From an uncultured beta proteobacterium (lineage in GTDB: Bacteria > Pseudomonadota > Gammaproteobacteria > Burkholderiales > Burkholderiaceae_C), in NCBI GenBank assembly GCA_903822205.1, contig CAIJOK010000039.1, forward strand, positions 43,383 to 107,382: a DNA stretch of 64,000 nt. The letters run 5' to 3'. A program made the translations under genes and the position numbers. This document shows, piece after piece, positions 16,803 through 24,366 of the stretch. The notes below the pieces were generated by a model. That model saw nothing but the letters and a program-made list of their open reading frames with translations, made no database searches and was not told the DNA's origin. The stretch's first letter is position 1; the number at the start of each line of letters is the position of its first letter.

Positions 16803-18377
16803 GTGAATGTGATTTGTTTTTCTGATCTCTGTCAACAGGGCCGCGTGGCCGGTCAGCGTGTTTTCATTCGGTCTGACCTGAATGTGCCTCAGGACGCAGA
16901 GGGCCACATCACCGATGACACCCGCATTCGGGCTTCCGTGCCCTGCATCAGAATGGCGCTTGACGCAGGTGCGGCGGTTATGGTCACATCCCATCTTGGG
17001 AGGCCGGTCGAAGGTTGCTTCAAGCCCGCTGACTCTTTGGCTCCTGTGGCTAAGCGTTTGTCTGTGCTGCTGGGGTGTCCGGTGGCCCTTCAGGCTGACT
17101 GGGTGAATGGGGTGAACGTGAAGCCGGGCCAGGTGGTGCTGCTAGAAAACTGTCGCCTCAATGTGGGCGAAAAGAAAAACGACGAGACCCTGTCGCGCAA
17201 GATGGCCAGTTTGTGCGACATTTTTGTTCACGATGCCTTTGGCACGGCGCACAGAGCTGAGGCCACCACCCATGGCATCGCGCAGTTTGCCCGTGTGGCT
17301 TGCGCCGGCCCCTTGCTGGCCGCAGAGATGGCGGCCTTGTCCCAGGCGCTGATCCACCCCAAACGTCCGCTGGTCGCTATCGTGGCCGGTGCCAAGGTCT
17401 CCACCAAACTGACTATCCTTAAAAGCTTGGCCTGCAAGGTGGATCAGTTGATCGTGGGCGGTGGCATTGCCAACACGTTTATGCTGGCATCTGGCCTGAA
17501 GGTTGGTAAAAGTCTGGCTGAGCCCGATATGCAGGACCAAGCGCGTGCCGTGATCGACTTGATGACCCAGCATGGCTCGGCCGTTCCCATCCCAACCGAT
17601 GTGGTGACCGTTAAAACCTTTGCCGCCGATGCACCCACTACGCTGAAGAGAGCTACCGATGTGGCTGACGATGATCTGATTTTGGACATCGGCCCCCAGA
17701 CCTCAACAGCCCTGGCCCTACAGCTTAAAAATGCCGGCACCATCGTCTGGAACGGCCCCGTCGGTGTTTTTGAGTTTGCAAGCTGCGAGCATGGCACCCG
17801 AACGCTGGCGCAGGCCATCTCACAGTCGAGCGCGTTTTCGATTGCAGGTGGTGGCGATACCCTGGCGGCCGTTGCCAAATATGGCGCACGGGTGGGCTAC
17901 CTATCCACCGGCGGTGGGGCTTTTCTGGAGGTGCTTGAGGGCAAAACCCTGCCAGCTTTTGAGATATTGATGCGTCGTGCACAGGCTGAGGCTTCAGAGG
18001 CATCGCCACCTGTTCTTGCATCGCCCCCCAGCATCACGCCTGTGCTGGATGTGCCACGTGGTATCTCCATGTTGGGATCGGAGGTCTCACTGCGCAAAAT
18101 TTTGAAAACTGTGTGCGACAGCATGGTGACCAGCCTGCCCGAGATCAAACAGGCCTTACAGGCAGGCGATGTCCCTTCTGCTAATCGTGTGCTGCACTCT
18201 CTCAAAGGCTATGTGCCTATTTTTGGTACGGATGCGTTGGTTGAACACGTGACACAGGTTGAATTCATCAGCAAAACTGGATCGGCCGCTGTGGTGTTGT
18301 CGGCTTACGAAGACCTGGCCCCCCGCCTTGAGGCACTGCTGGCCGAAATTCAGCAGTTTTTGCTCCCTACCCCCTGA
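16803..18377 (+). CDS. pgk: Phosphoglycerate kinase with a C-terminal histidine-phosphotransfer (Hpt) domain
   Basis: 524 residues against a normal 390-400. Residues 1-395 are a complete phosphoglycerate kinase: SDLNVP (24-29), DDTRI (38-42), SHLGRP (63-68), GAKVSTKL (196-203), GGGIANTF (219-226), GPVGVFE (318-324), GGGDTLAAV (349-357) and STGGGAFLE (368-376) are all there, so glycolytic activity is expected. A Pro/Ser/Ala-rich linker (about 397-418) leads to about 105 residues with the Hpt signature: His465 in [12 protein letters not shown], with Lys468 and Gly469, then a helix ending TQVE. The frame runs through without a break. GTG start with GAGAGG 6 nt upstream. Next downstream is a lone receiver and the chemotaxis genes. 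I know of no such fusion; the transfer function is inferred. Confidence 0.93.
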
Positions 18378-18635: not shown

Positions 18636-19019
18636 ATGAAATACGTTTATGCCAGAATTTTGGTCGTAGATGATGACGAAGTCATGCGCAGCTTCGTGGT
18701 GAACACGCTGCGCCGAATGGGTATTCAGTCCATTGAGACTGCCTCTGACGGGATCAATGCATTGCGTACCATGATCACTTTCAAGCCCGACTTGGTGCTG
18801 ACGGACATCCACATGCAGCCTATGGATGGCTTGGACTTTGTGCGGCAGTTACGTGCTCACTCCAACCCTGTCGTCAACAGCATGCGCGTGATCTTTATGA
18901 GCGCTGATGCCAGTACCGGTACCCTTGAGGAGGCCATGCCTCTCGGAACCTACGGGTATATCGTCAAGCCACCCCGCCTGGACAATTTGCAGGCCAAAAT
19001 TGAGCAAGCTCTGAAATAA
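18636..19019 (+). CDS. Single-domain response regulator (CheY-like receiver)
   Basis: 127 residues, receiver only: acidic pocket VVDDDE, phospho-acceptor Asp57 in LTDIHMQPMDG, the switch Ser in FMSADA and the Lys in YIVKPP. It lacks an output domain, so it acts by protein contact or as a relay intermediate. First gene after the pgk-Hpt fusion and 126 bp ahead of the first chemotaxis receptor. It differs from the CheY at 21434-21802 by more than half its residues, so the cluster has two distinct receivers. It is the most obvious candidate partner for the Hpt domain, by position only. Confidence 0.9.
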   Translation: MKYVYARILVVDDDEVMRSFVVNTLRRMGIQSIETASDGINALRTMITFKPDLVLTDIHMQPMDGLDFVRQLRAHSNPVVNSMRVIFMSADASTGTLEEAMPLGTYGYIVKPPRLDNLQAKIEQALK

Positions 19020-19145
19020 ACGGACCCGCGTGGTTGCCTTGGGCCGTCCTAGTAGGCCTGACATGGCAGGCGGTAAGCACGGTACAAGCGGCGGGCGCAT
19101 AGCATTTTGGTAAGTCAGTTTTTGAACCCAGCCCAAGGTTTTGAT

Positions 19146-20666
19146 ATGAATTTTTTCGCCCCAGGCGTTGCGCTGCTCAGGTCATTGTCCGGTACCGTGC
19201 GGTTTTGGGCGGTATCTGTTCCCTTGTTTTTGGCCATGCTCATCGTTCTGTTGATGCACGCGGTGGGCAGTCAGGACGGTGATGTCCTACCGGTTGCCAT
19301 GATCTCTGTGGTGGGGATGTTGGTTTGGTGGTATCTGGTACGATGTTTCATGACCGTGAGCCAAGTAGAACGTGAACGCACGGATGCTTCGATGATGGCG
19401 GCTTCCAGGGGTGACCTGACCCGACAGACTGATACCGATGTGGCCACACTGGGCAACTTTGGCTTGCATCTTGAGGGCATGATCAGCAACATGTCCAGCA
19501 TCGTGGCCAACATCCGGACATCGGCCGTTCTGCTCGGTGATACGGGCAAAAAGCTGGTCGAAGACACCCGTTCGCTGTCTGAACGCGCAGAGGCTCAGGG
19601 CGACCACTTGCAGCAGACCTCTATGCACGTCAAACATGTCAGCGAGACAGTTGCCCGTAATGCCGCCGCAGCCCAAGAGGTGAGCATGATGACATCTAGC
19701 CTACACAACGAGGCTGACAGTGCCGGCAAGATGATGCACGAGGCCATGCAGAGTATGGGCCCGCTTGAGGTCACCTCCAAACGCATGTCCGAGATCATCG
19801 GGGTGATCGACGGGATTGCGTTTCAGACCAATTTATTGGCGCTAAATGCCGCTGTTGAGGCCGCTCGTGCCGGCGAGCAGGGCAGGGGCTTTGCTGTGGT
19901 GGCCGCCGAAGTGCGCAATCTGGCAAAACGCAGCCAGGCCGCCGCCGCCGAAATTCGCACGCTGATCGCCGAGTCTTCTAACCGTGTCGGCGATACCGTG
20001 AACGGTATTCACCGGATCAACGAAACCATGGAAAGTTTGATCTCGGGCATTGGCGAGATCGCCATGAACGTCAACGTCATGGCCGAGGGCAGCGCCTCGC
20101 AGAGCGCCGCCCTTGAAGAGGTGGTTCATGCTGTGGGTGACCTTGACGTGCTGACCCAGGAAAACACCGAGCTTGTCTCTCGTGCAGGGTTCAACTCAGA
20201 TCGCTTGATCTCGCAGGCTTCCACCCTCGAAATCTCGGTGGGCGATATGTGTTTGCGCCAGGGCACGGCAGACCAAGCCAGGCAACTGGTGTTTGATGCC
20301 ATGCTGCACCTGCGCACTGTGGGACTGGCGCAGGCCCTATTGGACTTTCATGATAAGCACGGCTCTTTTATTGACCGTGACCTGTATGTCTTCATTCTGG
20401 ACCGAACCGGGCGCTACGTGGTGCATGGCGCTATGCCTGATCGTGACGGCACGCTGCTGTCCGATGTGCATGGTTCGGATGCCGAAAAGATGCTGTCAGA
20501 TGCTTGGACGCTGTGTGACACAGAGCAGGGTGGTTGGGTCAGCCAAACCGTTCTGAACGAACTGACAGGCACAGTCCAAGCCAAGTCCTCATACGTCGTG
20601 CCTGTAGATGACAACCTTTTGCTGGGGTGTGGTTGCTACTTGAATGCCGAGTGGCTTAATGTGTAA
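19146..20666 (+). CDS. Methyl-accepting chemotaxis protein with a C-terminal cytoplasmic Cache-like domain
   Basis: About 506 residues from the ATG at 19146 (AAGG upstream; a TTG at 19107 is less likely). Two transmembrane helices lie close together (about 20-39 and 50-67) with only a short periplasmic loop, so there is no periplasmic sensor. A cytoplasmic helical region follows, then the conserved hairpin tip [34 protein letters not shown] (split here as a continuous family signature). After the signalling helices comes a single-Cache-like domain from about residue 385, with FIDRDLYVFILDRTGRYVVHG and KSSYVVPVDDNLLLGCGCY. Sensing is therefore expected inside the cell. No methylation-receptor pentapeptide at the C-terminus. 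Confidence 0.92.
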   Translation: MNFFAPGVALLRSLSGTVRFWAVSVPLFLAMLIVLLMHAVGSQDGDVLPVAMISVVGMLVWWYLVRCFMTVSQVERERTDASMMAASRGDLTRQTDTDVATLGNFGLHLEGMISNMSSIVANIRTSAVLLGDTGKKLVEDTRSLSERAEAQGDHLQQTSMHVKHVSETVARNAAAAQEVSMMTSSLHNEADSAGKMMHEAMQSMGPLEVTSKRMSEIIGVIDGIAFQTNLLALNAAVEAARAGEQGRGFAVVAAEVRNLAKRSQAAAAEIRTLIAESSNRVGDTVNGIHRINETMESLISGIGEIAMNVNVMAEGSASQSAALEEVVHAVGDLDVLTQENTELVSRAGFNSDRLISQASTLEISVGDMCLRQGTADQARQLVFDAMLHLRTVGLAQALLDFHDKHGSFIDRDLYVFILDRTGRYVVHGAMPDRDGTLLSDVHGSDAEKMLSDAWTLCDTEQGGWVSQTVLNELTGTVQAKSSYVVPVDDNLLLGCGCYLNAEWLNV

Positions 20667-20711: not shown

Positions 20712-21422
20712 TTGACTGCTGTGAGCTTTCTCACCGTGCCGGGTACCCCCCCTGATGATCCGCTCGGAAGGACACCCGACGTTGAGCGTGCATTGGTCAG
20801 GCTTTGCGCTCAGGTGTTGCCGGTCTGGGCACGCCAGTTGGCCAATTCTCGCAGTCAGTCAGAGACTGCCGTCGCTGAGATGTTGACGGCTTTTGCCGAG
20901 ATTGGCCCGCATCTGGATATGACGGCACGCCAGTCCAAACAGATCACAGCGGCCTTGACCGAGGGTCAAGATGGCATTACCCAACTGGCCAGGGCTTGTG
21001 ATCGTGAACTAGAGCCGGTGCTTCAGCAGATCACGGGGCCAGCGGCTGATGCGGTGCGGCGCGTCATCACCATGGTCCATAAGGCGGTCGATGCGCTGGA
21101 GGAAATCTCAAAACCGTTTGAGTATGAAACCCAAATGGTCAATTTGCAGGTCGATCGAATGTACCAAGGCTTTCAGTACCAGGATCGCATCAGCCAGATG
21201 ATGACGCTACTGCACAACGACATTGAACGGCTATGCTTCGTCTTGACCCTGCCGGATGTAGGTCTTGAGGATCTGGACCATGCGGCCTGGCTGGAACGTT
21301 TACAGTCCCAATACGTGATGCGGGAGCAGCATGATCTTCACGATGATGTAGATGAGGGTCAGCCCAGTGCGCACCAGGGCGAACCAGGCGCACAGGGTGA
21401 TCGTGGTATGACTTTTTTTTAA
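20712..21422 (+). CDS. Putative CheZ-like chemotaxis phosphatase
   Basis: About 236 residues, all helical by pattern. A central amphipathic segment contains FQYQDRISQMMTLLHNDIE, in which Asp158 and Gln162 have the spacing and context of the catalytic Asp143/Gln147 of E. coli CheZ (QDLTGQ). The C-terminus is acidic and disordered (EQHDLHDDVDEGQPSAHQGEPG) and ends in GMTFF, reminiscent of the flexible tail by which CheZ binds CheY. It sits between a receptor and CheY, 11 bp upstream of cheY. The start is uncertain: TTG at 20712 or GTG at 20721, neither with a good ribosome-binding site. Overall identity to CheZ is low, so the call depends on the motif and context. Confidence 0.6.
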   Translation: MTAVSFLTVPGTPPDDPLGRTPDVERALVRLCAQVLPVWARQLANSRSQSETAVAEMLTAFAEIGPHLDMTARQSKQITAALTEGQDGITQLARACDRELEPVLQQITGPAADAVRRVITMVHKAVDALEEISKPFEYETQMVNLQVDRMYQGFQYQDRISQMMTLLHNDIERLCFVLTLPDVGLEDLDHAAWLERLQSQYVMREQHDLHDDVDEGQPSAHQGEPGAQGDRGMTFF

Positions 21423-21433
21423 GGTGAATTGAG

Positions 21434-21802
21434 ATGGCACAAACAATTTTGGTGGTCGATGACTCAGCCAGTCTGCGTCAGGTGGTGGTCATGGCGCTAC
21501 AAGGTGCCGGTTACGAGGTTTTGCAAGCTGGTGACGGCCAAGCTGCATTGGCTTTACTTGACGGTCGCAAAATCCATATGGTGGTTTGCGATGTAAATAT
21601 GCCGCGCATGAACGGGATCGAGTTTGTTAAGGCTGCCAAGGCCATCCAAGCCTACCGTTTTTTACCAGTGCTCATGCTGACCACCGAAAGTCAGGAGGCC
21701 AAAAAAGAAGCCGGCAAAGCCGCCGGTGCCAAGGCCTGGATGGTCAAGCCTTTTTCTCCGGCCTCCTTGCTGAATGCGGTCTCCAAGCTCTGTTTGCCCT
21801 GA
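21434..21802 (+). CDS. cheY: Chemotaxis response regulator CheY
   Basis: 122 residues, receiver only. Acidic residues Asp9 and Asp10, phospho-acceptor Asp53 in VCDVNMPRMNG, the switch Thr in MLTTES and Lys in WMVKPFSP. This subtype (DVNMPRMNGIEF) is the one usually paired with a STAS-domain protein and CheA, which follow here. Phosphorylated by CheA and, in classical systems, binds FliM to change flagellar rotation. 64 bp ahead of the STAS gene. Confidence 0.93.
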   Translation: MAQTILVVDDSASLRQVVVMALQGAGYEVLQAGDGQAALALLDGRKIHMVVCDVNMPRMNGIEFVKAAKAIQAYRFLPVLMLTTESQEAKKEAGKAAGAKAWMVKPFSPASLLNAVSKLCLP

Positions 21803-21866
21803 ATTCCTCGGCCTGGCATGTGTGCGCAGTGCTGACGCTTTGCATCCACCCATCAAGATACCTTTC

Positions 21867-22169
21867 ATGATCAAACCTTTTGAGCTTCCGGTCGAAATGA
21901 CCATCTACAGTGTGGCCCAAACCCGTGACGGCTTGCTGGCTTGGTTGAGCGAACAAGCCCTCAAGCCTTTGGAAGTCCCTCAGATTTCTGCCGCCCAGGT
22001 CAGTGAAATTGACGGTGCAGGCCTGCAATTGTTAGTGGCCTTGTCCCACACGATGCAGGCATGGCGGCTTGTCGGGGCCAGCGAGATTTTTGTCGATGCC
22101 TGTCAAACCCTGGGCCTGAGTACGTGGTTTGACGGTCTCACCATGACCACCCCAGCACAGAAAGCCTAG
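21867..22169 (+). CDS. STAS-domain protein of the chemotaxis cluster
   Basis: 100 residues from the ATG at 21867. Single STAS fold: PFELPVEMTIYSVAQTRDGLLAWL, the conserved strand-loop QVSEIDGAGLQLLVALSHTM and a final helix after LVGASEIFVDACQTLGLS. The Asp-Gly-Ala position normally carries a phosphorylatable Ser/Thr in anti-anti-sigma factors and is Gly here, so regulation by a Ser kinase is not expected. Proteins of this kind often sit between CheY and CheA; their role is unsettled. Ends 4 bp before cheA. Confidence 0.85.
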   Translation: MIKPFELPVEMTIYSVAQTRDGLLAWLSEQALKPLEVPQISAAQVSEIDGAGLQLLVALSHTMQAWRLVGASEIFVDACQTLGLSTWFDGLTMTTPAQKA

Positions 22170-22173
22170 TGCC

Positions 22174-24366
22174 ATGAGTAACTCTGCGTCTGATGCCGAT
22201 CAGGCCTTCATTGCCGCCGCGATGCCAGCCTTTATCAGCGAGGCTGTTGAACAGACCGAGACCATCGAGTCTCTTTTGCTAGAGATTGAAGAGCATCCCA
22301 AGAACCGCGAGCTGCTCGATTCTTTGTTTCGCTGTGCCCACACCATCAAAGGCTCTGCCGGTATTTTTGGACTCAGCAAGGTGGTTGAATTTGCCCACCA
22401 TGTTGAGACCTTGCTGGATCAACTGCGTGAGGGCGCGATAGCATTTGGGCCACAGATGGGTACTTTGCTGCTGGAGTGCAATGACCAGATCAAGTTTTTG
22501 GTTGCCACAGCCTCTGACGAATCTGCGGATACCACCGACAGAAGGGACCAACGTGCTGACCTTGTGATCCGGCTTTGTGCTTGTACCGAGGGCACAGTGC
22601 AGGGTACTGTGGCTTTGCCGTCTGCTGCTGGTCAGGCATTAACCGCTGGTGAGGATGGTGTCACGCTCTGGAAGGTTTCGGCCCGATTTGCTCAGGATAC
22701 CTTTCGCAATGGCATGGACCCCCTGTCCATCGCCCGCTACCTGGGCGGTTTGGGCGTGGTTCAGTCCATGGTGTGTGGCACAGACACCGTGCCCTCATTG
22801 GCCAACATCAACCCCGAGTCTTGTTATTTAAGTTTTTCTATGGCGATTGAATCGTCTGCATCGCGCGACGAAATCGCAGGCGCTTTCAGCTTTGTGGCCG
22901 ATGACTGCGAGCTTGACATCATCAAGCCCGAGACTCAGAGCCAAAAGCTGGCACGCGAGATCGATGAAATGCCCGAGACCCCACGATTAGGCGATTTGTT
23001 GGTGTCGGTCGGTGCGGTGTCGCATGACAAACTGGCCCAGGTGTTGAGTTCACAGCAAAAGGCCACGGGTCAGTCGTTGCTGGACAAGCCAAAAATTGGC
23101 AATCTACTTGAAACCCAGGCAGGGGTAGCACCCGAGGTGGTTGAGGCTGCATTGAACAAACAGCAAAAGACGCGCGAAACCAGTACCGGCGAAGAGGGTC
23201 GCTACATCCGCGTTCAGGCCGACCGTCTCGATGCGGTGATCAACCTGTTAGGCGAGCTTGTCATCGCGGGTGCCGGTGCCACGCTTTTAGCGCGTGAAAC
23301 CCGCCAGGTGGCGCTGATCGAGGCTAATCTTCACATGAACAGCTTGATCGAAGAAATCCGCAATGGCACTTTGGGTCTGCGCATGGTGCCTGTTGGAGAA
23401 ACTTTCAGTCGCTTCAGGCGGGTGGTTCGTGACACCGCATCCAGTCTGGGTAAAGAGGTCAATTTTGAAATTGTTGGCGGTGAGGCCGAATTGGACAAGT
23501 CCATGGTCGAAAAGATCGCTGACCCCCTGATGCACCTGGTTCGCAATTCGCTGGATCACGGTTTGGAGCCTCCGCCTGAGCGCGTGGCGGCCGGCAAACC
23601 TGCGGTCGGTCGATTGGTGCTGAGTGCCCAGCACGAGACCGGTGCCATTTTGATCCGCATAGAGGACGATGGGCGTGGCATCAACCGCGAACGGGTGCTG
23701 CAACGTGCGTGGAACCGGGGTCTGGTTGAGCCTGGGGTTGTCCCCGTTGACGATGCCATCAACATGCTGATTTTTGAACCCGGGTTTTCAACCGCTGAGC
23801 AGGTGACCAACTTGTCAGGGCGCGGTGTGGGCATGGATGTGGTGCGTCGCAACATCGAGGCCCTGCGTGGCAGCTTAAGGCTGAATAACCGTCCGGGTCA
23901 TGGTCTACAGGTGGACATCCGTTTGCCGCTGACCTTGGCCATCATCGACGGCTTTTTGGTGGGTGTTGGGGTGAGCAAATTTGTACTGCCGCTTGAGTCC
24001 GTGGTGGAGGTCATTGAGTCAGGTGGTCAGTACGTCAAGGTCGATGCCTCAGGCAGGCACTGTTTAGAGCTTCGAGGTGCCGTGCTGCCAGTGGTTCGGC
24101 TGCGTACGCTCTACAACATTGAGTCCAGTCTGCCCGACCGCGTCAGTGTGGTGGTCGTCAATTCTGTTCGCGGCAAGTACGGCATTGAGGTGGAGGTTTT
24201 GCTGGGCCAGCAACAAACCGTGATCAAGCCCTTGGGACGATTGTTCAAAACCTTGCGCGGTATCTCAGGCTCCAGCATTCTGGGCAGTGGCGAGGTAGCG
24301 CTGATTTTGGACGTAGGGTCTTTGGGTGAGTTGGTGACCGCTGAGCCTTCCAGTGTGAGTGTGTAA
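22174..24366 (+). CDS. cheA: Chemotaxis sensor kinase CheA
   Basis: 730 residues. P1 Hpt domain with His56 in CAHTIKGSAGIFG; a long linker with a P2-like domain (about 165-260, MDPLSIARYLGGLGVV and FVADDCELDII); P3 dimerisation helices (RVQADRLDAVINLLGELVIAGA); P4 ATPase with NSLDHG, DDGRGI and GRGVGMDVVR; and a P5 CheW-like domain at the C-terminus (LPLTLAIIDGFLVGVGVSKFVLPLESV). All catalytic boxes are intact. Starts 4 bp after the STAS gene. No separate cheW follows, which is unusual; an adaptor must come from elsewhere or P5 must suffice. Confidence 0.97.
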   Translation: MSNSASDADQAFIAAAMPAFISEAVEQTETIESLLLEIEEHPKNRELLDSLFRCAHTIKGSAGIFGLSKVVEFAHHVETLLDQLREGAIAFGPQMGTLLLECNDQIKFLVATASDESADTTDRRDQRADLVIRLCACTEGTVQGTVALPSAAGQALTAGEDGVTLWKVSARFAQDTFRNGMDPLSIARYLGGLGVVQSMVCGTDTVPSLANINPESCYLSFSMAIESSASRDEIAGAFSFVADDCELDIIKPETQSQKLAREIDEMPETPRLGDLLVSVGAVSHDKLAQVLSSQQKATGQSLLDKPKIGNLLETQAGVAPEVVEAALNKQQKTRETSTGEEGRYIRVQADRLDAVINLLGELVIAGAGATLLARETRQVALIEANLHMNSLIEEIRNGTLGLRMVPVGETFSRFRRVVRDTASSLGKEVNFEIVGGEAELDKSMVEKIADPLMHLVRNSLDHGLEPPPERVAAGKPAVGRLVLSAQHETGAILIRIEDDGRGINRERVLQRAWNRGLVEPGVVPVDDAINMLIFEPGFSTAEQVTNLSGRGVGMDVVRRNIEALRGSLRLNNRPGHGLQVDIRLPLTLAIIDGFLVGVGVSKFVLPLESVVEVIESGGQYVKVDASGRHCLELRGAVLPVVRLRTLYNIESSLPDRVSVVVVNSVRGKYGIEVEVLLGQQQTVIKPLGRLFKTLRGISGSSILGSGEVALILDVGSLGELVTAEPSSVSV

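Follow-up and report, generated by a model that had tools for sequence, protein, structure and literature searches.

Phosphoglycerate kinase (PGK) is a glycolytic enzyme and the histidine-phosphotransfer (Hpt) domain a component of phosphorelays, so that a single gene encoding both raises the question of whether phosphate passes between the two halves or whether two neighbours have been joined while each keeps its own task. Such a gene lies in a 64,000-nucleotide stretch of DNA from an uncultured beta proteobacterium (hereafter the window; genome G000), as a single 524-codon frame that begins with GTG and runs uninterrupted to its stop. PGK is matched over positions 5-379 of the 379 in its Pfam profile (PF00162; E = 3.8e-128, 428 bits against a cut-off of 27), and Hpt over positions 2-83 of 84 when the whole protein is searched (PF01627; E = 6.4e-7, 30.0 bits against a curated cut-off of 24.6). 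The preliminary description of an uninterrupted frame with a complete PGK and, behind a linker, an Hpt domain is borne out, both domains exceeding their Pfam cut-offs. It had also proposed a profile search of the C-terminal part against Hpt families, and the last 122 residues by themselves match PF01627 at 33.2 bits against 24.6. The principal features are collected in Table 1.

Table 1. Features of the fusion gene and of the chemosensory genes that follow it (positions in the window).
Feature	Position	Strand	Basis and remarks
PGK-Hpt fusion gene	16803..18377	+	524 aa, stop included; fused in relatives too
Phosphoglycerate kinase (PGK) domain, residues 14-381	16842..17945	+	Pfam; tested substrate and nucleotide motifs intact
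Ala/Ser/Pro-rich linker, residues ~394-415	17982..18047	+	Sequence; varies among fused relatives
Hpt domain, residues 433-518	18099..18356	+	Pfam
His465 codon, predicted phospho-accepting histidine	18195..18197	+	Invariant in 34/34 rows
Lone receiver REC1, 127 aa, likely Hpt partner	18636..19019	+	Response_reg 7.1e-26, 91 bits
MCP with C-terminal Cache domain	19107..20666	+	Pfam
CheZ-like protein	20712..21422	+	None above cut-off in Pfam, none in NCBIfam
CheY-like receiver	21434..21802	+	Pfam
STAS-like protein, start probably downstream of the listed one	21774..22169	+	STAS_2 match of 22.2 bits, short of its cut-off (29.2)
CheA, which has an N-terminal Hpt (P1) itself	22174..24366	+	Pfam

The Hpt signature named in the same description (His465, Lys468 and Gly469) is correctly numbered and occupies columns 63, 66 and 67 of a 34-row alignment, which comprises the 36 Hpt loci of the genus minus G096 and the contig-end fragment G097; all three residues are invariant in every row, and 33 of the 34 aligned relatives match PF01627 at E ≤ 0.01. 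A passage in PMC6341664 mentions a surface glycine at position H+4. Among solved chains, the best matches to the fusion are bacterial PGKs aligned over residues 15-395 (6i06, 6hxe, 1zmr), and the Hpt part gives a weak profile match to 3myf, annotated as a 'Sensor protein' (E = 0.0024), with histidine aligned on histidine. A search for the same architecture in related genomes, likewise proposed at the outset, recovered fused frames in other assemblies of the same genus. Because these assemblies also carry the frame fused, a sequencing error that merges two separate genes is excluded. A phage or defence origin was likewise rejected, with no PHROGs and no PADLOC matches. In the window, no start codon within the 75-codon stretch examined has a Shine-Dalgarno-like tetramer at the usual distance, one being 20 bases off; in G088 the stretch tested for an internal Hpt start contains TTG and GTG codons just behind AAGG/AGGA, and the other fused genes hold scattered weak candidates for an internal start of a free Hpt.

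PGK-Hpt is, as far as sampled, a real and lineage-specific protein that newly combines two well-known domains. The preliminary description knew of no such protein, and literature searches, judged by title and the start of the abstract, gave none; the portion of the Rhodoferax genome paper PMC5374385 that was consulted makes no mention of one. Within a family-wide sample the Hpt model matched 27 of 399 genomes, four of them Rhodoferax including the window, and 20 of the other 23 matches were frames of 116-181 codons. An order-wide sample yielded two matches in 399 genomes, both in the window's family and one of them the window itself. Outside the genus, none of the 25 loci recovered from the family and order samples had a PGK near Hpt within flanks of about 1.5 kb. 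In the phylum sample, PGK was matched in 380 of 398 genomes, and the ten PGK frames of at least 480 codons among the matches listed reflect upstream openings only, with no C-terminal extension. These samples outside the genus are limited, and rare PGK-Hpt fusions are possible there.

Comparison with known proteins places each half in familiar company. Like the solved bacterial PGKs (PF00162; 6i06, 1zmr), the fusion holds the whole PGK domain over residues 15-395 together with the tested motifs, but it differs from an ordinary PGK in about 125 additional C-terminal residues that include the Hpt domain. The bifunctional PGK/triosephosphate isomerase (NF010569) also consists of PGK with a C-terminal partner; identity with it was rejected, since the window protein reaches only 407.9 bits against a cut-off of 883, over residues 14-394, and its partner is Hpt rather than an isomerase. 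The small separate Hpt genes of the same bacterial family belong to the same Hpt family, and in genus g78 they show the same Hpt-REC1 order; unlike the fusion, they have no PGK in the fetched flanks (25 of 25 loci). The P1 domain of the cluster's CheA aligns with the fusion Hpt through its histidine and HxxKG motif (profile comparison, E = 0.0011, at a probability of only 20%), although the two represent different sequence families and the fusion has no kinase core. In another genus of the family, one frame of 487 codons (L154, 1531-2784) encodes three copies of Hpt, and an MCP-like match comes after it.

The distribution of the fusion was established by searching 90 genomes of the genus with the Hpt model (E ≤ 1e-10) and inspecting the surroundings of all 36 matches, which came from 36 genomes. 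We infer that the sampled genus is Rhodoferax; the Hpt relatives occur at no fewer than 22 named loci, many labelled Rhodoferax and others Comamonadaceae, beta proteobacterium or Comamonas. Fused PGK-Hpt frames occur in nine of the 36 genomes: seven are full-length (G000, that is, the window, and G002, G010, G020, G022, G046 and G088), one is cut by a contig end (G023), and one has an internally deleted PGK and measures 325 aa (G089). A separate pgk directly precedes hpt in eleven genomes (G016, G019, G056, G057, G066, G067, G082, G100, G102, G103 and G104). Fifteen have no PGK at the Hpt locus (G005, G011, G013, G024, G041, G044, G051, G069, G076, G080, G085, G094, G096, G098 and G099, the call for G096 resting on about 3.5 kb of readable upstream sequence), and all fifteen have a PGK match elsewhere. 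In the remaining genome, G097, the upstream side ends with the contig and is unreadable. The commonest gene order is fmt-azlC-azlD-[pgk]-[hpt]; G013, G044, G051, G094 and G098 deviate from it, as does the window, where glyA lies upstream of the fusion.

In nine of the eleven separate pairs, 5-81 bases separate pgk from the first possible Hpt start; exactly one in-frame stop intervenes in four of these (G019, G057, G100 and G104), two in-frame stops in G067, and the other four close pairs are in different frames. G066 and G082 have gaps of 382 and 492 bases, which hold a CheY-like gene on the opposite strand. Under the history that we propose, a glycolytic pgk of Rhodoferax, typically found in the order azlC-azlD-pgk-pyk-fba-purC, would have come to adjoin a small stand-alone hpt on its downstream side, and the stop between them would then have been lost in one line or a few.

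Phylogenetic analysis bears on how often this may have happened. In a PGK tree of 42 rows (G089 omitted), six of the eight fused rows fall outside the clade of second PGKs and beside mostly azlD-linked PGKs, in a region where many branches are open. The other two, from G010 and G023, are placed inside the second-PGK clade, near the free paralogue of G010, whose flanking genes we take to be gap and fba. Overall identity between the fused and free PGKs of G010 is 92%, rising to 99-100% in two 150-base blocks, and a 1130-base match at 94% identity (L042 9458-10587, L122 7811-8940) stops near the PGK/Hpt boundary. From these sequences, gene conversion is the likely cause of the similarity; alternatively, the PGK part may have been replaced. 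In the tree of cluster proteins, for which 12 rows with long branches or without cluster genes were left out beforehand and G089 and G011 were dropped for too few columns, a single clade of just the eight fused rows was rejected (AU p = 0.000175). One branch (87/99) separates the fused rows together with G076, G080 and G097 from the remaining rows. G076 and G080, which have no PGK at the locus, fall among the fused rows, G080 with 100/99 in both trees and G076 with 94/89 and 92/94, not starred. One fusion followed by losses of PGK would be the simplest reading of this pattern, and several fusions are also possible.

Downstream of the fusion, the preliminary description had seen a lone receiver and then a chemotaxis cluster. 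Pfam confirms this order, REC1 being followed by genes for an MCP, CheY and CheA; the CheZ-like assignment rests on a motif that we presume to be diagnostic. The MCP carries its Cache domain after the signalling domain, on the C-terminal side, whereas Cache domains usually come first. Residues 271-297 of CheA, between P1 and the dimerisation domain, weakly match an MshE-type cyclic di-GMP-binding motif (23.6 bits, below the cut-off of 38), which may stand in place of P2. The fusion and REC1 are separated by 258 bases in the window.

The downstream side can be read at 33 Hpt loci of the genus; at 25 of these, that of the window included, REC1 is the gene directly after Hpt, and it follows the fusion in eight of the nine fused loci. 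The exception, G023, has the MCP directly downstream, and its assembly contains no REC1 match at E ≤ 1e-20. Hpt is kept in all 16 loci in which PGK is absent (15) or broken (G089); REC1 follows it in 14 of them, and the other two (G011 and G096) end at a contig edge. In genus g78 of the same family, four of the five genomes matched have the Hpt-REC1 pair but no PGK beside it; three of the four have a match to the same MCP next and the fourth an MCP-like frame. In the fifth (G354), no REC1 lies within the flanks of its Hpt. Because Hpt-REC1 is kept where PGK is missing from the locus or broken, and in g78 as well, this pair is the longer-lasting unit, to which PGK is an optional addition.

The eight readable loci without REC1 after Hpt are G023 and seven of the group in which hpt lies within a glycolytic locus. 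Eight of the eleven separate pgk-hpt loci have no REC1 at the locus, one of which (G016) ends at a contig edge, and searches of these eight genomes gave no REC1 match at E ≤ 1e-20. In the seven readable ones, pyk comes directly next or behind a convergent receiver-GGDEF gene. These seven loci (L114, L111, L109, L115, L112, L113 and L043) have the arrangement pgk-hpt-...-pyk, continuing into fba and purC if the contig extends that far, and the convergent receiver-GGDEF gene precedes pyk in L112, L113 and L043. The idea that PGK and Hpt must work together is not supported: Hpt is retained in 16 of 36 genomes whose PGK is absent from the locus or broken. In seven genomes with a readable downstream side, Hpt sits in a glycolytic locus without REC1.

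The condition of the PGK half was assessed from its motifs and from columns that are otherwise constant. The window has all seven motifs examined, namely RxDLNVP, HLGRP, ENxRxxxGE, FGTAHRA, GAKVSxKL, WNGPxGVFE and GGGDT, which we take to serve the substrate and nucleotide sites. Six of the seven patterns match in all seven full-length fusions; GAKVSxKL, a pattern written too narrowly, matches the window only, its relatives having Ser at the position of the window's Ala197. Of 180 columns that do not vary among 34 unfused PGKs (29 from the genus and five others), nine are changed in the window, one of them the GTG start, against 0-2 in the other six full-length fusions. In a leave-one-out control on the same columns, the 29 genus rows showed 0-1 changes and the five outside rows 1-12. 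G089 shows ten changes with 103 columns missing. It has the substrate-site changes N27D, R67H and R151L in addition to a large deletion that removes roughly half of PGK; its gene (L101 6757-7734) keeps the first ~189 residues and the last dozen or so of PGK, in frame with an intact Hpt.

The PGK branch of the window is long (0.33) in the PGK tree. For PGK, dN between the window and G046, G088, G020, G002 and G022 is 0.16-0.17, against 0.09-0.10 between G046/G088 and G020/G002/G022; for the same two sets of pairs, MCP gives 0.19-0.22 and 0.16-0.20, REC1 0.13-0.16 and 0.09-0.12, and Hpt 0.33-0.39 and 0.30-0.36. In both the PGK and the Hpt domain, dN is below dS wherever dS could be computed, dS being near saturation or undefined. 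With dS near saturation and REC1 dN raised too, these values are only an indication that the window PGK is mildly relaxed; given its nine changes at invariant columns, it may be losing constraint. No PGK besides the fused one was found in the assemblies G046 and G088 (completeness 84% and 92%), where the fused PGK must be active if no other exists. A second PGK match is present in G000, G002, G010, G020, G022 and G089, and G023 has four fragments. A Calvin-cycle role for the second PGK of the window genome was rejected, as G000 has no match to the RuBisCO large subunit.

Our preferred explanation, which we consider probable, is a lineage-specific fusion of neighbouring genes that yields a working PGK with a tethered Hpt serving REC1, without phosphoryl exchange between the halves. 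It builds on the observed fusion, its distribution, the order of neighbours, the intact motifs and the survival of Hpt-REC1 without PGK. The product would be an active PGK with a flexibly tethered, functional Hpt. The PGK half would form 3-phosphoglycerate and ATP as usual, and Hpt would exchange phosphate with the adjacent REC1, linking it to the chemosensory cluster (MCP, CheY, CheA) or to hybrid kinases elsewhere; the cluster's CheA and such hybrid kinases are candidates for loading Hpt. The active site of PGK and His465 would exchange no phosphate, and the halves would be tied by co-expression and tethering. Most likely, then, the join is a tolerated or mildly useful form of co-expression in which each half does its own job, and a working exchange between PGK and Hpt is unlikely. 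Several observations count against this explanation. Several species have kept the fusion, and its PGK motifs are intact even beside a second PGK (G000, G002, G010, G020 and G022), which is more than an idle join would require. The nine changes at invariant columns in the window, G023 with no REC1 match and G354 with no REC1 also weigh against it, as does the 258-base gap, across which the window's fusion and REC1 may be transcribed apart.

That same persistence beside a second PGK is what a metabolic sensor would lead one to expect. PGK closes when its substrate binds, and the residues at its C terminus lie packed close to the hinge; ligand-driven closing would alter access to the Hpt histidine, and phosphate flow to REC1 or the cluster would report the glycolytic or energy state. 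REC1 stands next in eight of nine fused loci, and the fused PGK of G010 looks homogenised with its free paralogue (94% over 1130 bases), both as a sensor would have it. We nevertheless regard it as unlikely, for many relatives keep Hpt-REC1 without PGK at the locus, G089 keeps both with a broken PGK, and the linker differs between fused species in length and sequence, unlike a tuned conformational relay. PGK may otherwise be recruited to signalling partners, or its ligands may gate signalling. In the gated form, the substrate-driven closing of PGK would control Hpt; how much phosphate REC1 carries would then depend on carbon flux, and the chemosensory pathway would be biased accordingly. This is an improbable arrangement in our estimate; if true, energy taxis would be sensed at the enzyme instead of at a receptor. 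The deletion in G089, with its intact Hpt, would fit another fate for the enzyme, namely that the fused PGK is a redundant domain on its way out, mainly a leader or tether for Hpt and lost line by line. The position of the PGK-less G076 and G080 among the fused rows, and the extra invariant-column changes and 0.33 branch of the window, agree with such decay, but the motifs are intact in all seven full-length fusions, the other six have just 0-2 invariant-column changes, and G046 and G088 have no other PGK that was found; we consider decay unlikely. Far less probable is that PGK directly phosphorylates His465 from 1,3-bisphosphoglycerate or ATP, as the preliminary description had entertained. 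The Hpt is tethered to an enzyme whose family binds an acyl phosphate; against this, PGK is to our knowledge not one that forms a phospho-enzyme, as it transfers directly to ADP, and Hpt persists in the 15 of 36 genomes with no PGK at the locus and in G089, whose PGK is broken and lacks substrate-site residues. It is for these two reasons that we hold phosphorylation of His465 by PGK to be so improbable.

Surprising as the architecture is, comparison of these genomes speaks for joined neighbours rather than for a relay driven by the enzyme. A single genus displays separate neighbours, fused genes, a fusion with a decayed enzyme and the relay domain alone, and thereby offers a test case for whether fusions of enzymes with signalling domains are chance products that cells tolerate or are retained for a function. 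Should the ligands of PGK gate the Hpt domain, the protein would physically and directly couple the state of glycolysis to a phosphorelay.
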